Assembly: GCA_000467715.1 (NCBI GenBank)
Contig: AJFK01000230.1
Span: 1 to 31,691, forward strand
Origin: Hysterium pulicare CBS 123377
Taxonomy: Eukaryota > Ascomycota > Dothideomycetes > Hysteriales > Hysteriaceae
Length of the DNA stretch: 31,691 nucleotides
Direction of reading: 5' to 3'
Positions 9,468 to 28,394 of this stretch are shown piece by piece. The translations under genes and the position numbers were made by a program. The notes under the pieces were generated by a model. That model did not search any database and had not been told where the DNA came from. It saw only the letters and a program-made list of their open reading frames with translations. Each line of letters starts with the position of its first letter. The stretch's first letter is position 1.

Positions 9468-11458
9468 TCAGGCAAATCCAAAACCCGTGAGTAAGTTCCT
9501 AACCTCTGCAGGCGGCATGCCATTCGTGCCGAGTGCCCTGACCTGAGACCCACGTCTCAGCCGTTGTAGGCCAACAGCGACTTTCCAGCTCTCGCCGTCA
9601 TCAATGATGAAGACGTATTTCTTGCCTTCTGGATCGCGGATCGAGGCGCGGAGAAGGTGTTTGCCATTTCTCTCGCCAGTCTAGAAATAGTCAGCATCAT
9701 CGCAGGAAACATCCTGAAGCCGAGCTGTAAGTTGCAAGGAAAATGGAAGGAGTGACTTACCTCGACGAGTTTCATGGTCCAAGCTTTAATATCCCATTCT
9801 CGCTGCGCGACATTTCGGACGTCGTCATCAATGAACAATCCCTCGGTAGTAATCTTCAGGATTAACCCATCAGTTACGTTACCAGTCCCTGCCACCAATT
9901 GCGCCACTGGCTTCGGGAACAAGTCATTGAAGAGATATACCGCTTTGATCTGGATCTTGTCTGGGTCATTGGTACTATAAGGGCCTCGCTGGCTGGGCGG
10001 CGGTGTCGTACGTGAGGTGCTTTGAGATGGAGCATAGGAAGATTCAGAATATACAGAAGACTGAGAAGGTACTGTGGGAGGGCGCTTGGGTTTGTCGTAG
10101 GGCCGGAATGAGTGGCCTTCGCTATCTTGGGAGCCAAGGTAGGATTTTGCACTGGGTTTTTCGTAGGGCTTCTTTGGGGAAACGGTGGCTTTGATTGGAG
10201 ATGAGCGGGTTGAGGTGACGGATGGAGCTGGAGGACTCCGAGCTCCTGCAAAGATATCTGTACGCTCACCGCTTCCCATTCCGTACGTTGCAGAGCGGCG
10301 ACTAGTCGCAATCTTCTCCGCTTCGGCCTTAAGGCGCGTTTCTCGTTCGCGTTCTGCGCGTTCGCGAGCGGCCTTCAGTCGCTCTGCCCGATCCTTGTCG
10401 GCTTTCTCCTTCGCTGCCTTTGCTTCCGCGTCCGCCTTGGCTTGTTCAGCTTTCTTCTTCGCCTCCTCTTCAGCCATGGCCTTCTGTTCTGCCTCCAGCT
10501 TCTCCCTGATCTCCTTTTCGATTTTAGTTCTCGCTTCGGCTTCCCGTGCTTCTCGTTCTCGTGCATCTTTCTCTCGCTGATCCTTCTCCCTCTGTAGTCT
10601 CTCCTTAGCGATTCGTTCACGAGCTTCCCTTTCTCGTTGTTCACGTTCTCGGGCCCTCATTTTCTCCCACTTCTCCTTTTCTGCCTGGGCTCGAGCTTGC
10701 CTCTCAGCTTCATCCTTCCGCTTTTGTTCCTCTTCTCGCCGTTTCTTCGCTTCTTCGGCTCGCTTTCGTTCTTCTTCTCGTTTTCTTGTCTCTTCACGAG
10801 CCTTCTCCCATCCCGATGAGGATGACGATTGGGGTTTTGACCATGAAGGCTCTGGCCGAGCTTCGGATTCAGGTGGCGGAGGTGGAGGTGGAGGCGGAGG
10901 CGGAGGCGGAGGCGGGGATTGTTGATGTTGATGTGAATGGGGCGGTGGTCCGTACCCAGGATGCGGTCCCCCTCCAGGAGTCTGTGGTTGAGGTCCAGCG
11001 CCCGGGAAGCCACCATGGGGTGGTGATTGAGCTCTTTGATATCCTGGAGAAGGACCTCCTGCTGTTCCCTGGGCTCCACCGGTTCTAGGCGGTGATCCAC
11101 TTGCTCCAGCCCCTCCCTCTCCTTGAGTCTTGCCCCAGGCCCAGCCAAGCACTCCAACTGCTACGATCAGCATCATAACACCGGTACCCCCAGATGCTAT
11201 CCCCTTGCTTAGCGTTGCTACCCATTGCTTGACCGTTGGCTCGATGATCTGCCATATTGCAATTGCGAGTACTGTGCTTGCTACTCCAGCCAGGAAGCTG
11301 TTTCGTTGCGGTGCAAGAGAAGGTAGGTAAAGAAACCCACCACCTGAGGAATGGGGGGGTATTATGAAGATATCGTAGTTTCCTGGAGGCAGCCCAGCTG
11401 AAGTTGTCTTTGGGTTGGAGCCATGGGGAGGTGGAGGCGGCGGTGGTGGGCCATCCAT
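9468..11458 (-). CDS. Membrane protein with proline-rich, coiled-coil and C-terminal globular regions
   Basis: Exon 1 (11458-9761) and exon 2 (9680-9468) are joined by an 80-nt phase-0 intron (GTAAGT..TCTAG), giving 636 residues. In order: a poly-proline start (residues 4-11); two hydrophobic segments at about 54-72 and 91-108; a Gly/Pro/Gln-rich stretch; 15 consecutive prolines at 182-196; a very charged Glu/Lys/Arg/Ala helix at about 217-383, probably a long coiled coil or single alpha helix; a Ser/Pro-rich linker; and a globular end at 501-636. Exon 2 completes the globular end with strands such as KKYVFIIDDGE and a final helix ESWKVAVGLQRLRR, a pattern reminiscent of a PH-like fold (inference). 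This suggests a membrane-anchored scaffold or tether. I do not recognise a named family. Without splicing, the frame would run into unrelated residues and stop at 9557. Confidence 0.82.
10871..10915 (-). repeat. Triplet repeat encoding poly-proline
   Basis: A GGN-type triplet tract on the plus strand, mostly GGC and GGT/GGA read in offset, encodes the 15-proline run at residues 182-196 of the coiled-coil protein. It is a likely site of length variation between strains. Confidence 0.7.
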
Positions 11459-12748
11459 CTCCGGCCCAGGTCTGGAAAAGGCCTCGAGGCCGGGTTGGAA
11501 GTCTCAGATACTCTTCTTATTTACTTTGTATGTTTACGCGAGAGGCTGCAGATCGGCAATTCGGGGAGGTGAGAGCGTTGTCGTGCGTTGGATGTGGCGT
11601 TCGTGCGTCGGAGAAAAGGCATAAAGATTGTTGCCTTGTTTTGGAGGGTAAAGGGCGGCCGTTTCGGGGAACCGATGCGTCAATGATGGGGTATTATATG
11701 ATAGGGATGGCAGATTGGGCAATGCTGAAACTCCAAACGCCGTCAGATGGATCGTGAGGGGGTGTACTGTACAGATTGGACGGAATTGAGGGCGGAGGTG
11801 ATTGTTGATGACTTTTGTTGATTGATGTTTTGGGAGCTCGTTTAGCGCCCGCGCGGGCCGTCACCCACCGCAAGGTTTGATCCGCACCTCCAGCTGCCAG
11901 GTGTAACGCTGGCGATGGAAAGCTTCGATGGGTCTTCGTCAGTTCATGCACCGAACTCCAGTCGTTTTGAAGGCCATCCCTCCCTTTCCCCAGCCAATTT
12001 GGCCAGCATCATCGTGGTGGCAATTGCGGGGCCTTGGTTGCGCTCTCGACACGGAGCTGTGAACGAATAACAAACATCATCTCCACCTCCGCATTGCTAC
12101 TGGATATGCTCAATGGGGCATCGTGACCAAGCGTGATTCGAGTCAGCAAATGCAGGCATTGGCAGAACGCGGCCAGCCATCATTCGCTGGGCCATGTGCT
12201 GGGCTGTGTGCTGAAGTCCCTCTCTGCAGCAGTCAAAAGAAATTTGGGCCACATGGAAGCCCCGGTCCCATCTCCTCGTTCTTTGCAATGTGCTCTCCTC
12301 CGCAATCCAATGCAGAACATGTTGACAAATCATCTACATGGGGTTGGAGAGGAGACTGTGGCGTTGCTTTGTATCAGTGCCAGTGCCGTGAATGACGATT
12401 GATTGTTTACTGTCGAAGTAAACAACACGACATCCGCTGTCACGACAGGATGCGTGCGTTGGCCCTGCAGACGAAAAGGCGGGACAGAACGGCCGGCTCG
12501 ACGTTCAAGACTGCCCACCAGCGACCAATAGCATCTGTCGCACGTCGTCATCCTTTTCCATTGGGACGAGTAAGCCACAGGACTCGAGCCAGCGGCAGTT
12601 GCGCACATCACGAGCACAACATTCATCGCATGCGGGCTCTCGTCGAGTCTAGCCTGTCCCAACGATATACGAAAGACTGTCATGGTCGTTTTCTGTTGTG
12701 GCACCCTGCTCATGGGACCGACCAGGTCTTGGCTGTTGACCCGCTAAC
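11459..12748. other. Divergent promoter region
   Basis: About 1.3 kb separates the start of the minus-strand coiled-coil gene from the plus-strand transporter, so it holds both promoters. Overlapping frames on both strands (11694-11951, 12123-12402, 12330-12713, 12399-12863) have no domain and look like chance. Confidence 0.55.
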
Positions 12749-14650
12749 ATGGAAACCTACGAGCTCACTCCGCACCCCCGAGAGCCGCATCGTGACGGGA
12801 CCGCCATGGAGGACGAGCCTCAGGACAGCGGACCCGATGCGCGCATACAGAAGAATACAGTGAAGAAGCTGGACGTATTATTACTTCCCTTTCTCTCTTT
12901 ACTCTTCTTGTTCAACTCACTTGATAAGTCTAATGTAGGCAGCATTCCCAGCAAACACCACTCTCATCCGGCTACCTAACCGCTATCAGATTGGAAATGC
13001 AGAATCCGCTCATTTCACATCCAACATAGGGCTACACAAAGACGACCTCAACACAGCCGTCGCCCTCTTCTTTGCCTTCTTCGTAAGCCTCCAACCCCTC
13101 GGCGCCGCGCTCGGAAGAAGATATGGCATGGTGGCCTGGGTCCCATCATGCATGGCTTTGTGGGGGGTATCAACAGCCCTACACATTTGGGTGAAAACCC
13201 GATGGCAGCTATTCACGCTGCGGATTATCATTGGCTGTCTAGAAGGTGGGTTAACTCCCTCCACCCGCTCTCCTCCCCGAAACCGACCTATCATGATGTC
13301 ATTATGGCTGATGTACCTGCAGCGGGATTTTATCCCGTAACGGTGTCCTTCCTCTCTCTCTTCTACACCCGCTTCGAGTTCGCGCGGCGACTCAGTCTTT
13401 TCTACGGGCAAGCTGCCATAGGCGGGGCATTAGGCGGCATCCTCAGCTACCTTGTGTTCTCTCGATTCCCAGGCGAACAACGTGATCACGAAGAAGGAGC
13501 GTTACCAGATAATAATAATGGCTGGAAATCGTGGCAGGTACTATTCCTGCTTGAAGGCATCTCAACGATCATTGTCGCACTTGTTGGATACCTCTGGCTG
13601 CCTCATGGACCCAGCACGGCCTGGTTCCTGAGTGATGAGGAGAGAGCATGGGCAGAGGAACGCATTAGACAAGATCGCACGCCAGCTTCTTCAACCTCTG
13701 CATCTCCTCATGCCACAAAAGCCGACGACGAAGAAGATGTTAACCACGAAGAATCTCACGGCCTCCTGGGTCAATCTCACGCCTCGTCATCCTCTCAACC
13801 CATAACCGACGATCGCGGCCTAACACCCCATGACATTCTCAGCGCCCTGCTCTCGCCCAAAATCTACCATATCCTTCTCTGCAACATCCTCAGCTCCATC
13901 CCCATATACGCCTTTTCCGTCTTTCTGCCCCTCGTCCTAGCGCCCCTAACAGGTGGGCGAGCCTCTCCCGCCCTTGTAAACCTCATGACAGCACCTCCCT
14001 TCATCTGCGGTGCAATTACCCTCTACCTCTTCGCTAGCTATAGCGACCGTCACCAGATCCGCATCATGCCCATCCTAACGGGCCTGGGAGTAGTGATCAT
14101 AGGCCTAACCCTTACAGTGGCAATGCCTCACACGAAGGGCTGGGCAATTCCTCGCTATCTCGCCCTGAACGTCCTCATCAGCGGATGTTTCGTGGCGTCT
14201 CCGTTAACAGTCGCCTGGATAAGCGGGAATACGCCGTCCCCTGGTAAACGTGCCCTTCTACTCGGTATCAATGGTTGGGGGAACTTAGCTGGTGTGTTGT
14301 CGGCACTGCTCTTTCGACCTAAATATGCTAAGGATGGTTATATTGTCCCTTTTTGGTGGACCCTGGTATGTGTTGGGTGTGCGGCCGGGGGCTATTGGCT
14401 TTTCTGGCGGAACTTGGCAGCGGAGAATGAGCGCAGGAGAGCTCTTCTTAGGGGTTGGGATGAGGAGGATGTTGAGAGGGAGCGGTGCGAGGGACGCGGC
14501 CCGCTTGTATCAGATAGGCGTGTCGTGGAGTGGGTTGCGAGGTGGTGCTTAGGAGTGAATAGGTTAGAGGGGGTGGCGAGATGGATAGAAGCGGCGAGAG
14601 ATGGTGGGAGAGACGGTGATGAGAGGATTACTTTTATTTATGGGCTATGA
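12749..14650 (+). CDS. MFS transporter, anion:cation symporter (Dal5/Tna1-like) type
   Basis: Three exons, 12749-12934, 12990-13245 and 13323-14650, encode 589 residues. The introns are 55 nt (CTAAC branch point) and 77 nt. The first transmembrane segment reads KKLDVLLLPFLSLLFLFNSL and is followed by LDKSNIGNAE across the first splice junction, the signature of this MFS branch. Across the second junction comes GCLEAGFYP, the usual start of segment 4 to 5. An LGRR loop between segments 2 and 3 fits the MFS. The central cytoplasmic loop, about residues 250-310, is long, acidic and Ser-rich. Known relatives carry organic anions such as allantoate, nicotinate, pantothenate or biotin precursors with protons across the plasma membrane; the substrate cannot be told here. 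The C-terminal tail (after WLFWRN) is unusually long, about 85 residues, Arg/Glu-rich and cytosolic. Confidence 0.9.
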
Positions 14651-17934: not shown

Positions 17935-18304
17935 CTATAGCTTGCTGATGAAGAGGCGCGCAGCCATCATGCGGACTCTCTGGGGGAGAATGTACTTAGA
18001 AAGTACGTAGATAAGGGATGGAATGAGGATGAAAGCGACCGTGGTTTCGTTGACGAAGAAGAAGGGGATGAGTTGGGGCATGGCCGAACGCAAGACCATC
18101 TGTAGCAATGGCAATCAGCAATGGTGCAGGCGGATTGGCATCGTGAACGCTCACCATTCCCTTGTTGTTCTCGGCGGGAGACGCAATCTGGTTGGATTTG
18201 GCATGGCCAGCGACGAAAGCAGGGCGAGCCATCGTCGATGGACGAAGGATGGCGGGTCGCTGGATAGCTCTTGCGAGCGGGCGGAAGAGTCGTGTGGAGT
18301 TCAT
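17935..18304 (-). CDS. ATP8: Nuclear-encoded mitochondrial ATP synthase F0 subunit 8
   Basis: Exon 1 (18304-18155) and exon 2 (18099-17935) are separated by a 55-nt phase-0 intron (GTGAGC.., CTGAT branch point, CTACAG) and encode 104 residues. Exon 1 gives 50 residues rich in Arg and Ala/Pro with a single acidic residue (MNSTRLFRPLARAIQRPAIL at its start), a typical matrix-targeting presequence. Exon 2 encodes six linker residues and then a 48-residue ATP8: MPQLIPFFFVN at its start, one membrane segment, LP at the membrane exit, a basic tail, and RLFISKL at the end. Yeast ATP8 has the same 48-residue length, the same MPQL.PF start and the same C-terminal RLFISKL. Subunit 8 is part of the F0 peripheral stalk in the inner membrane and is normally mitochondrially encoded. 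Standard code, nuclear codon use and introns exclude a recent mitochondrial insertion. Confidence 0.9.
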
Positions 18305-18312
18305 GATGGGCC

Positions 18313-18391
18313 CTGGGAGGTTCAACATTAGCTCGCATCCTTTGGCCAATTGACAAATATGCAGCCGAGCAAGTAGATCTGTATCACTAAC
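18313..18391 (-). other. Probable 5' UTR intron of the ATP8 gene
   Basis: On the minus strand a GTTAGT donor at 18391 and a CTCCCAG acceptor ending at 18313, with GCTAATG as branch point, define a 79-nt intron ending 8 nt before the ATG at 18304. It removes the in-frame upstream ATG at 18328, which supports the chosen start. Confidence 0.5.
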
Positions 18392-21993: not shown

Positions 21994-24033
21994 CTATATC
22001 ATGCCCGCTAAACTATTCAGAGGGGTCATCGTCGTTTTAATGCCGACTAGTTCTGGTTCACTGACTTGCTGACCCGGGCCTTGACCTTGCAACTGGCCTT
22101 GCCCTGAGAAGGTAGAAATCGAACGCAATGGTGGGCTGAACAATCCTAACACTGGCTCCTGCTTCGGCTCGATAGTCGTGTGCATCGATTGTGATTGCAT
22201 GGATGCTGAACTAGTATTCATCGACGGCATTGGCATTGGTGGCACTGATTGAGCATGGCGGTTCGAAATCAAAGTCGAATTTGAGTCCTGTGACGATTCC
22301 TTGGTGATAGGGTATGACGATGAAGTTGCTGATGCGGAAGAGACGGCGCGTGCGCGAACTTGGTGCGAGGTTTCACGGCGCCGTTTAGGGCCGTCTTTTA
22401 CCTTTGGGTGTGTGTGACACTGATAATAAATTAGCATCAGGGAAATGCAACCTCGCCATGAGAATCATACCTTATACGCGTGTCTGAACCACGTGGTTCC
22501 TTTCTTCTTGCTACTCACAAGCGCGATCCATTCGCCACAGCTTCCACAAAGACCCTCCCAAACATCCAAATTACCCTCCGTGCGCCTCGTATCCTGAGGG
22601 CCTTGGAAGGCAGCACCAGTCGCAGCGCTGACGCCATGAGTAAAGGACTTATCATACCAAAAGGCGCTGTTCTTGAGCACAAGCCATCGGCCGGGTTTAC
22701 AGAGTCCACACCAGCCCTCTCGCTTGTTACCATGACCGCGGACCCAACGTGGGGTATACAAATCCCCACCAAAGCGAAGGTCCTGTTCATGTGGAACGAG
22801 GTCTGGGTCAGAGGGATTCATGTCTGACTCTGGTGGATTTGAAGGCTCTTCATGAAGCGAGGAATACAGATCTGGAGGATCTGAAAGATCTGCGAAATGC
22901 GATGAACAACCGCTATGGCGGTCCGCATTGCTTTGCAGCAAGCGGAACAGCCCTTGAGACGGAAGAGGCCTAGGTACCTCCAAATGGAATGGTTGGTCCG
23001 GCGAGGCGAACAGTGCCGGGTTACTTGACTGCAGAGGATGAGGTTGCGAGTAAAGAACGTTTTGGGTCTGCAACTGAAAATTACTCAAGGCGTTCGGCGG
23101 ATATGCAGGTAGTGAATGATGAGGGTTCAGGCGTGGACCATACGTAGCGAACCTGTCCGAAACCTGGCTGATAGTTCTGGAGCCGGAGGGGGTCGAAGTA
23201 GGCGCATGTCCAGTGGACCATCTCTTGAAGCGGCTGCTTTCCATCGTATATGGCGACGATCGCATGTTATTATAAGGCGCAGGTGAGGCACGGGAGCGGC
23301 TACCACTTCTCACCACCGAATCGTGCTGCGTGCGTCTTGGTGAGGCGAGGGGCGAGAGAAGGCTCGGCGCAGGTTCAAGGTTGTTCCAAGGTTCACAATC
23401 TGACGCGTATGAAACCGCCTCGGATGCCGACATGTCCTCATACGTAGATACTTCTTGCAAGCCGCCCGTACTCGACATTGAAAATGAAGACTCAGACATT
23501 CGTCTAGAGGCGGTCGGATTAAAAGTTGCCATATTGTCGCCATCGTGCTCAAGGTTGTGATACTGCCTCAGATCAATAATTGGGGTGTCCTCGTCGTTAC
23601 CCATCAGGCCATGGCTGAATTCCGACATGTCCGGATCCATGCTAGGAAAGGATTCCAGCTCTTCACAGACCTTTTGGCCCCAAGAGCCTGTCGAAAGTGT
23701 TAGGTCGAGCCCTAAAAGGTCAACAAAAGGCTTACTGGTATCAATGACGGTTCCGGGGAAATAGTCAGTGGTAGCAGATGGCTCTACGTGTACACTGTTG
23801 CGGTAGCTTTGAGCAGTCATGCCAGCTGAATGTACAGCGGACACATCGATCTTATCTATGGATGGTATAGTAGCATTGCCCTCATTGCTACTCGTCAACG
23901 GGCCTTTTTGCATTTGGCTGTATGGATTATGAGTTGGCTGGACCGCCCAGGTTGGATACGATTGAGGTGGTCTAGGATGAGGATGGCTATGCGTCTGCTG
24001 GGGTTGTAGGGGAAGGTTCCCATATGGATACAT
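21994..24033 (-). CDS. Rua1/Meu26-type transcription regulator (Rua1 C-terminal domain)
   Basis: Exon 1 (24033-22471) and exon 2 (22419-21994), joined by a 51-nt phase-0 intron (GTATGA.., CTAAT branch point, ATCAG), encode 662 residues. The first 410 residues are Ser/Pro/Gln-rich and low in structure, as in many fungal regulators. Residues about 420-530 carry the conserved domain known from Ustilago Rua1 and fission yeast Meu26: GGDLYTPRWVRG, then GWCGLC (C442, C445), a WLVLKNSAFWYDK block, GLCGSC (C496, C499), and WFRHAYKCHTHPK spanning the intron (H518, C522, H525). The paired Cys and His residues suggest zinc binding. A basic stretch KRRR after the domain may be a nuclear localisation signal. 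Rua1 controls glycolipid secondary metabolism in Ustilago; the target in this organism is unknown. The 3' third is Ser/Met/Gln-rich. Confidence 0.9.
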
Positions 24034-24047
24034 TATTTGCGGCGCAT
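24033..24047 (-). promoter_or_regulatory. Minimal upstream ORF overlapping the start codon
   Basis: ATG CGC CGC AAA TAA begins 14 nt before the main ATG. Its stop shares one base with the main start (TAATG), an arrangement that favours stop-restart translation and may limit expression of the regulator. Its presence in the mRNA is assumed from its closeness to the start. Confidence 0.55.
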
Positions 24048-24079
24048 GTCGAGAGGGGTTTTGGGTGATCGTGTAAGAT

Positions 24080-24162
24080 CTATTAGATGAAGGTCGATAT
24101 CTTTATACATTATGATCAGTATTGAAGCTCAAAGTGAATATGGTGATATCAAACAGCCTTAC
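24080..24162 (-). other. Possible 5' UTR intron of the Rua1-like gene
   Basis: A GTAAGG donor at 24162 and a TCTAATAG acceptor ending at 24080 give an 83-nt candidate. The branch-point-like CTAAT lies too close to this acceptor, so another acceptor may be used. Confidence 0.3.
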
Positions 24163-26268: not shown

Positions 26269-28394
26269 TTAGTGTCCCACGTGGTCTATGCCGATGCTTC
26301 CCGCTCTTTCCTTAACCGCGAACCGTGTCTCTTCCCTAGCAATTCGCTCGTCTGCCTCAATGTACTCAGTCGGTCTTTGAAGCTGCACGGCGATCTTGTT
26401 GCGGTTAATGAAGATTCCTGGATTAGTCTCGAAGAACCTATCAATATCTTCAAGCGTCCTATTGGCCGTTTCGGGATAAAAGAAGTAGGTGATCGGTATG
26501 AAGGCGAAGCAGATGACTGCCCAAATGATCCAGAACTTCCACCCCAGATTGTTAATTCCTGGCAGGGTAACCTGTACGACCATATAATTCTACCTTGGTG
26601 TCAGCAAAGTCGTACTACCCCCACGCCGCAACTCTAAGCCGGAGCACGTGTGCTTATTGTCGATGGAGCATTGCCTACCATGATCCAATTTGTGGCCTAG
26701 TTATAGCAATTAGTGTCAAGTAAGAGATATCTTCGATTGCGTCGACGTGTGCATACCATTGCCAATGACGCCCCTTTGGTTCTCAACTCCAAAGCGTTGA
26801 TCTCTGTGGGATAAAGCCAGGGGACGCCTAATACACCCATCCCAAAGCTCGCGAAAAAGACAAAGAAGAATGACACGGCAACAATGCCAAGCTTATACTC
26901 ATTTCCGCCATGGGCTGATATACCTAGTGCAATGGCAATAATGATCCAGCACGTCGAGCATGCTGCCGCAGAGCATATCATGACCCTCCGGCGTCCATAT
27001 CTTTCGATGACAAAATAAGCCAAGCAAGCAAAAACGAGGTAATCAACACTCCCCGCAGCGGCAAGAATGCGACTCAGCAATGTGGAAATGCCGAGGGCGT
27101 TGATGAAAATGTAACTCATGTCTAGCAATATGTTGAATGAATGAACTGACTCTCTTCAAAAGCATAGGAATCGAACACGTACAATAGCTTGTAACGTTGA
27201 TACCAGAAATTTGGTTCATCGCCTGCATCCAGGCCCCGAGAATCATCCTTCGTAACACGCCAGCCGGACCTCGACCGGTGATGAGTTGCCACCATGTGTA
27301 GGTTGACACCTGTTCTCGGTCCAGAATATCTTTAATAATATTAAATTGGGCATGGACGGACGGCGAGTCGGGCGTTGCTCCATGGCCTTCTAGCGCAGCA
27401 ATAACTTCGTAGGCTTCTTTATACTTGCCCTTTCGAATGAGAAGACGGGGTGAGTCTGGAAGAAAGGGGCACAAAGCGTAGACACAGATCGTGAAGCTTA
27501 TTTGGCAGGCAAGAGGTAGACGCCACGCAACGTCCTTTGGTGCGAACGAGCATCCAAGGGTGAGCCAATTGCTAATTGAGAACCCCGTGATGCAGTTGGC
27601 TGATATATTGTCAGGTATGGGCAGCGATTGGGGGGCGGAAAGAAAAAGAAACCCATTTGGATAATCACCAGCTTCCCTCTACTTCGCATCTTGCTCGTTT
27701 CGGCCTGCCAAACTCCAGCTGTAGCCGTATCTGTATACAGTTAGTAATAGAGTGCTTTGTGACGAAGCAAATCGACGTACTCATACCAGTTCCGAGCCCG
27801 GCTATAATTCTGCCCACCATCATCTGTGCGACGCCATAGCTGGCAGTTTGAATCACCGCTCCCACAGCAATGATTGATGAGCCGAGAATTATCACCCTAG
27901 GACGGCCAAGCATATCTCCTGTCCAGATTGTCGAAAGAGCACTGCTTCTTGTTAGCCTCCATGCACACTAGGTGTAAAAAATATTGTATTCCGAACTACG
28001 CATACACCGGAATGGTCGTTCGCATAGCCTTTTGTTGTTGAATGGGTAGGAAACGTGAAGCGCGACTCCAACTCATTATCACACCGATTGAACTCCACCA
28101 CCTCGACTTCTATGAGTTTGTCATGTGTACTCACCCAATAAAGCAACCGATATTATAAATACTTGTCATTGTTCCCTGCATATCTGCAGAAGGGTGACCG
28201 AAAGTTTCAAGAAAATTTTCGTTGATAATAACATTTCCAAAAACGCCTTATTCAACTGTTAGCATTTCCGTTCTATCTACTATCGGGGATAGCTCACCCT
28301 GATCATACCCATAAAATATCAAGACAGTTGATGCAGCAATCGATATCCATACAGTCAGCCGCTCCCCAGAGCCACCAAGATATTTGCGTGCCAT
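26269..28394 (-). CDS. MFS sugar transporter, intact eight-exon gene
   Basis: Exons: 28394-28298, 28246-28135, 27941-27781, 27730-27653, 27599-27183, 27121-26757, 26696-26679 and 26589-26269, giving 522 residues without internal stops. Introns are 51, 193, 50, 53, 61, 60 and 89 nt. Read singly, the frames look like broken pieces, but each junction restores family sequence: YGYDQG|VFGN, FIG|ALSTIWTGD, GTGM|NTATAG, NQISGINVTSY|YMSYIF, ATNWIM|NYMVV. Sugar-porter marks are GR followed by IIAGLGTG, PDSPRLL after segment 6, QISGINVTSYY in segment 7, ERYGRRRV between segments 8 and 9, PTEI..LELRTKG, and YPETANRTLEDIDRFF after segment 12. It is a plasma-membrane proton symporter or facilitator for hexoses or related compounds; the substrate is unknown. 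The 18-nt exon 7 encodes ATNWIM. Confidence 0.88.

Follow-up and report, generated by a model that had tools for sequence, protein, structure and literature searches.

A probable nuclear gene for ATP synthase subunit 8 with a predicted mitochondrial presequence in Hysterium pulicare, and its relatives in several orders of Dothideomycetes

Structure of the gene and its surroundings

The stretch of DNA analyzed here (the window; 31,691 nucleotides from Hysterium pulicare CBS 123377) is contig C182 of an assembly of 37.2 Mb in 596 contigs. Reading of its open frames revealed an intact gene of two exons on the minus strand, running from 18304 to 17935; a preliminary description had given 17935..18304, which is exact for the coding span, and had left the strand unmentioned. 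Exon 1 (18155..18304, minus strand) holds the start codon and encodes a 50-residue presequence, MNSTRLFRPLARAIQRPAILRPSTMARPAFVAGHAKSNQIASPAENNKGM, and similar N termini are found in related proteins. Exon 2 (17935..18099, minus strand) comprises 54 codons and a TAG stop and encodes a six-residue linker, MVLRSA, followed by the ATP synthase subunit 8 (ATP8) part. Between the presequence and the ATP8 part lies a phase-0 spliceosomal intron of 55 nt (18100..18154, minus strand), predicted from splice and branch signals; it is of the GT-AG type, beginning with GTGAGC and ending with CTACAG, and has a branch-like CTGAT 14 nt before its end. The joined coding sequence of 315 nt is in frame, is free of internal stops, and specifies 104 residues. 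Its GC content is 55%, its GC3 is 70%, and its frame is open under the standard code, in agreement with the nuclear codon use that had been ascribed to it.

The start codon at 18304 is backed by relatives that share the initial MNSTR motif. An upstream in-frame ATG sits within a weak candidate 5' UTR intron of 79 nt (18313..18391, minus strand), proposed from consensus signals (GTTAGT, CTAAT, and CCCAG), and splicing would remove this ATG. The gene had been said to contain spliceosomal introns in the plural; the 55-nt intron bears this out for one, but a second would require the 79-nt element, a consensus match. The GC content per kilobase of the window ranges from 42 to 56%, and the neighboring frames identified with Pfam are ordinary: an MFS transporter (12980-14650, plus strand), a Rua1_C-type transcription regulator (22465-24102, minus strand), and a sugar transporter (26697-27678, minus strand). 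The window also contains a long low-complexity open frame (9557-11503, minus strand), proline-rich and then charged, which matches no Pfam family.

Identity of the product as subunit 8

In the 104-residue product, Pfam recognized a single family, Fun_ATP-synt_8 (PF05933), at residues 57-104 (62.9 bits; curated cut-off, 26.1 bits), and the match spanned profile positions 1-48 of 48. The complete 48-residue domain lies at 17938..18081 (minus strand) and reads MPQL...RLFISKL; these are the last 48 of the 54 residues of exon 2, and the full-length subunit with this start and this end had thus been correctly recognized. When the whole 37.2-Mb assembly was searched with PF05933 in six frames at E values up to 10, the sole match was the locus at 17938-18081 (64 bits; E = 6.0e-16). 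The match at this locus is not a chance one.

The window protein was also compared with solved ATP synthase structures, and all 48 of 48 residues aligned with chain 6b2z_A (E = 5.4e-9), which we take to be the mitochondrially encoded Atp8 of Saccharomyces cerevisiae. This sequence match is preferred to a profile search of the solved structures, which gave yeast Atp8 at an E value of 7e-23 and is circular because its alignment already contains the yeast row. The yeast protein retains MPQL and RLFISKL, as does the core encoded in the window, but it is a 48-residue chain without a presequence. The best 19-residue hydrophobic stretch scored 2.41 in yeast Atp8 versus 1.88 in the window protein, a purely descriptive comparison with yeast as the only mitochondrial sequence.

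Presequence and relatives

The first 30 positions of the presequence contain six arginines and no acidic residues, and Arg5, Arg8, and Arg12 are invariant in 20 aligned proteins (the window protein and 19 of its 75 relatives). From its composition and its likeness to genes of the kind for which TargetP predictions have been published (PMC5626475), the N-terminal extension is predicted to be a mitochondrial presequence. The proposal that exon 1 supplies such a presequence thus appears sound, given an extension that is arginine-rich, devoid of acidic residues early on, and conserved in relatives. When a donor of the presequence was sought genome-wide at E values up to 10, the gene itself was the sole match.

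At E values up to 1e-3, the joined sequence matched 75 database proteins. The top matches, Lepidopterella palustris K432DRAFT_383797 (P0001; 79% identity) and a metagenome protein (80% identity), each covered 100% of the query, including the presequence. The Lepidopterella protein has the same presequence as the window protein but is annotated merely as a hypothetical protein/ATP synthase. Parastagonospora nodorum was absent from the names among the matches listed. Ten named relatives were looked up in the NCBI taxonomy, where Lepidopterella, Mytilinidion, and Lophium belong to Mytilinidiales; others among the named relatives are Pleosporales. In a tree of 36 proteins, in which 5 of 33 inner branches were starred and which is unsettled in its bootstrap and weak at depth, the window protein grouped with Lepidopterella, the metagenome protein, Mytilinidion, and Lophium (support of 85/81, not starred). 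By tree path, the nearest rows were the metagenome protein and Lepidopterella and then Zopfia, Delitschia, and Lindgomyces. With Lepidopterella (Mytilinidiales) as the closest named relative by sequence, the Pleosporales frame in which the gene had first been placed is too narrow.

Among the 75 matches to the joined sequence were also proteins of Venturia inaequalis (Venturiales) and Coniosporium apollinis (for which NCBI gives no order). A profile search with the 48-residue core, of which the best 120 of 1000 matches were considered, added to these, among the matches listed, extended proteins from Verruconis gallopava (Venturiales), Aplosporella prunicola (Botryosphaeriales), and Trypethelium eluteriae (Trypetheliales) and partial proteins resembling exon 2 from Patellaria atrata (Patellariales) and Saccharata proteae (Botryosphaeriales). 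Orders that are missing from these 120 matches may likewise carry the gene. All seven (those of Verruconis, Aplosporella, Trypethelium, Patellaria, Saccharata, Venturia, and Coniosporium) matched PF05933 above its cut-off. The longest contigs listed for Saccharata (3.35 Mb), Venturia (2.88 Mb), Aplosporella (769 kb), Patellaria (685 kb), and Coniosporium (571 kb) exceed 236 kb, the largest published mitogenome size noted in the text available; the 200 kb for Verruconis and the 61 kb for Trypethelium do not settle the question by size. A group of ATP8 cores ends in FTSKL rather than FISKL (P0110, P0112, P0114, P0116, P0122, P0131, P0132, and P0134).

In local alignments with ten relatives, the window presequence scored above all 1000 shuffles for nine of them (scores of 59-183; shuffle means of 23-26), and for the tenth, Trypethelium, 20 of 1000 shuffles reached the score. 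The presequences of Venturia, Verruconis, and Aplosporella, compared pairwise, beat all 500 shuffles. For pairs with Coniosporium, between 0 and 28 of 500 shuffles reached the score, apart from 93 of 500 against Exserohilum; for pairs with Trypethelium, the number ranged from 11 of 500 (Delitschia) to 446 of 500. Homology of the presequence is therefore clear among the tested Mytilinidiales, Venturiales, and Pleosporales and for one protein of Botryosphaeriales and weaker for Coniosporium, and the Trypethelium presequence is not recognizably related.

The intron at the exon junction in relatives

The presence of the intron in relatives was judged from database proteins that had been predicted without splicing. 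Seven such proteins identified by eye (P0027, P0030, P0055, P0058, P0060, P0066, and P0071) carry an insert at the position of the exon junction of the window gene, and in 7 of 7 the insert can be read as having Val (GTN) as its first residue and Gln (CAG) as its last. The residue at position -7 from the core Met was then counted over 136 proteins, 40 of which had fewer than seven residues before the core and 1 of which (P0075) had no core motif; proteins were assigned to the two junction classes by length, with 45 residues ahead of the core as the boundary, except for nine that were assigned by hand after inspection of the proteins. Gln stood at -7 in 35 of 36 proteins that lacked the joined presequence, many of which are close relatives or metagenome predictions and hence not independent; in the exception, P0133, the residue at -7 is its first Met. 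Elsewhere upstream of the core in these 36 proteins, Gln accounted for 48 of 728 residues. The 59 proteins with a joined presequence had at this position Met (50), Leu (5), Gln (1), Ser (1), Ile (1), or Glu (1). This pattern fits a phase-0 intron whose CAG acceptor would lie six residues before MPQL, which is the position of the predicted intron in the window. Five members of the FTSKL group (P0114, P0122, P0131, P0132, and P0134) additionally have Gln at -7.

A gene of this kind had been expected to escape gene predictors easily, which proved partly right: it is annotated in many genomes, but several of the predictions are wrong. The seven proteins with inserts look wrong as predictions, with introns retained, and in P0075 (Pyrenophora teres f. 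teres) exon 1 was apparently read in another frame.

Nuclear location of the gene

The locus combines nuclear DNA, a predicted spliceosomal intron, and a nuclear base composition, as a relocated ATP8 gene should. Profiles for COX1 (best score of 13.1 bits; E = 0.57), ATP6, and cytochrome b found nothing above their cut-offs in the assembly, from which the mitochondrial DNA (mtDNA) was probably removed, if it had been assembled at all. Since cox1, atp6, and cob were not found in the assembly, we can only infer that atp8 has been lost from the mtDNA of this strain. A search for stray mitochondrial contigs in viral_contigs with the ATP8 alignment gave 38 pattern matches, 0 of which were confirmed.

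With the mitochondrial genes undetected in the assembly, a mitochondrial copy of atp8 may still exist, and we considered whether the locus might be an unexpressed nuclear copy of mtDNA (NUMT), with the working atp8 still in the mitochondrion. NUMTs do not have a frame open under the standard code with a GC3 of 70%, a presequence, or an intron bearing splice signals, and the core and presequence are conserved in many genera; a NUMT is thus highly improbable. Very probably, the window gene is nuclear and functional and specifies ATP synthase subunit 8. The relocation to the nucleus asserted in the preliminary description is well borne out at the level of sequence by the intact two-exon gene, the complete domain, the single match in the assembly, and the conservation of both presequence and core. 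For such a gene we infer a pathway in which it would be transcribed in the nucleus and its 55-nt intron spliced out, the 104-residue precursor would be made by cytosolic translation and carried into the mitochondrion by the arginine-rich N-terminal presequence, the presequence would be cleaved near LRSA/MPQL, and the single-helix subunit would be inserted into the F0 sector.

Nuclear and mitochondrial atp8 in published fungal genomes

Most fungi encode this subunit in the mitochondrion. A nuclear atp8 gene has already been published for Pleosporales, and the window gene is a new example of the phenomenon. In Stemphylium lycopersici, both atp8 and atp9 were described in 2017 as nuclear and N-terminally longer, with targeting predicted by TargetP (PMC5626475). 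Like the window gene, the Stemphylium gene (TW65_04673) is nuclear with an N-terminal extension, and its mitogenome lacks atp8; Stemphylium belongs to Pleosporales, whereas the window protein is nearer to Mytilinidiales, and the available text mentions no intron, the two genes being likened here by description (PMC5626475). Transfer of both atp8 and atp9 was reported for Shiraia-like fungi (PMC11881002), and a review lists nuclear atp8 and atp9 in Stemphylium and Pyrenophora tritici-repentis (PMC7272585); the probable source for the latter states just absence from the mtDNA in its available text (PMC5913888). The statement that mitogenomes of some Pleosporales lack atp8 agrees with repeated publication (PMC4366305, PMC6221350, PMC11167856, PMC5722872, and PMC5626475), and a nuclear ATP8 gene accounts for such mitogenomes. 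A further review counts atp8 among the genes rarely moved to the nucleus, with fewer than 6 transfers (PMC10809612).

For Botryosphaeriales, the mtDNA of Neofusicoccum parvum (in contigs unverified according to the authors) was reported with atp9 and without atp8, and for Macrophomina phaseolina the genes enumerated in the text include atp6 and atp9 but omit atp8, which is nevertheless named as one of the 15 genes behind the phylogeny in the same paper. Both reports agree with the nuclear ATP8 of Aplosporella and Saccharata, of the same order. In the open-license literature, as far as its text was available, we found no report of a nuclear atp8 in Dothideomycetes outside Pleosporales, of extended ATP8 proteins in Venturiales, Botryosphaeriales, Trypetheliales, or Coniosporium, or of the junction intron.

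The presence of a nuclear gene is compatible with a second, mitochondrial one, and both could be functional. In a comparison of 20 mitogenomes, 19 of them reannotated with MITOS, atp8 was missing from nine (PMC7225605). The table of that paper has 10 Pleosporales, 2 Botryosphaeria (Botryosphaeriales), and 1 Venturia (Venturiales), 13 mitogenomes from orders with nuclear ATP8; therefore at least 4 of the 13 were annotated with atp8, and these annotations may be either wrong program calls or real mitochondrial copies. Dual coding would be in line with this count, with the mitochondrial atp8 of Pseudocercospora fijiensis, of another subclass (PMC7999263), and with the statement that atp8 exists in many Dothideomycetes orders (PMC11167856), but it is at odds with the other reports of Pleosporales mitogenomes free of atp8, and we consider it improbable in this fungus. 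The count of nine is smaller than the number of Pleosporales in the same table, ten, and conflicts with the papers that find Pleosporales mitogenomes without atp8.

One transfer or several

The authors of the Stemphylium study suggested that loss from the mtDNA followed the divergence of Dothideomycetidae and Pleosporomycetidae (PMC5626475). From the sequences compared here, the transfer appears broader and probably older than in this published account. The shared presequence and the shared junction residue (Gln at -7) argue for one old transfer. We therefore propose, with a confidence that is evenly balanced, that atp8 moved to the nucleus once, before the split of Pleosporales, Mytilinidiales, Venturiales, and Botryosphaeriales, and that the presequence exon was joined to it through a phase-0 intron at the same position. 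Such a transfer would be earlier than published and separate from the mitochondrial loss of atp9, and the mtDNA copy would have been kept in Dothideomycetidae and perhaps also in part of the orders just named.

Several independent transfers among the orders are a rather less likely explanation. Arginine-rich presequences could partly converge, the Trypethelium presequence looks unrelated, that of Coniosporium shows weak similarity in several of its pairings, and the deep branches of the protein tree are poorly supported, all of which would suit separate events. They would sit poorly, in turn, with presequences of the window gene, Venturia, Verruconis, and Aplosporella that mutually exceed all shuffles and with a junction intron that appears to lie at one position and in one phase. 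The count in PMC7225605 weakens the notion that atp8 was lost from mtDNA throughout these orders but leaves the shared presequence and intron untouched. In the same paper, order relationships are unstable, and one tree places Capnodiales between Venturiales and the pair of Botryosphaeriales and Pleosporales, so a single transfer would require that the mtDNA copy survived there. Under a single transfer, the gene may long have been present in both nucleus and mitochondrion; if a single transfer is true, the event is dated deeper, and the shared intron is its marker.

In yeast, ATP8 has been made nuclear experimentally, for which a targeting sequence and adjustment of the genetic code were sufficient, but neither yeast ATP9 in nuclear form nor a relocated cytochrome b worked (PMC3420929). 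The yeast gene was engineered, whereas that in the window is natural. As a nuclear ATP8 that is both natural and widespread and brings its own presequence, it offers a ready comparison for experimental relocation. The genome of the window's fungus also contains a nuclear ATP9 gene (G000:C130, L013 complement, frame 2295-1657), whose N-terminal extension is apparently split by an intron. Like the ATP8 in the window, it specifies a small F0 subunit, a different one, outside the mtDNA with an N-terminal extension, and both small F0 subunits thus have nuclear genes in this fungus.
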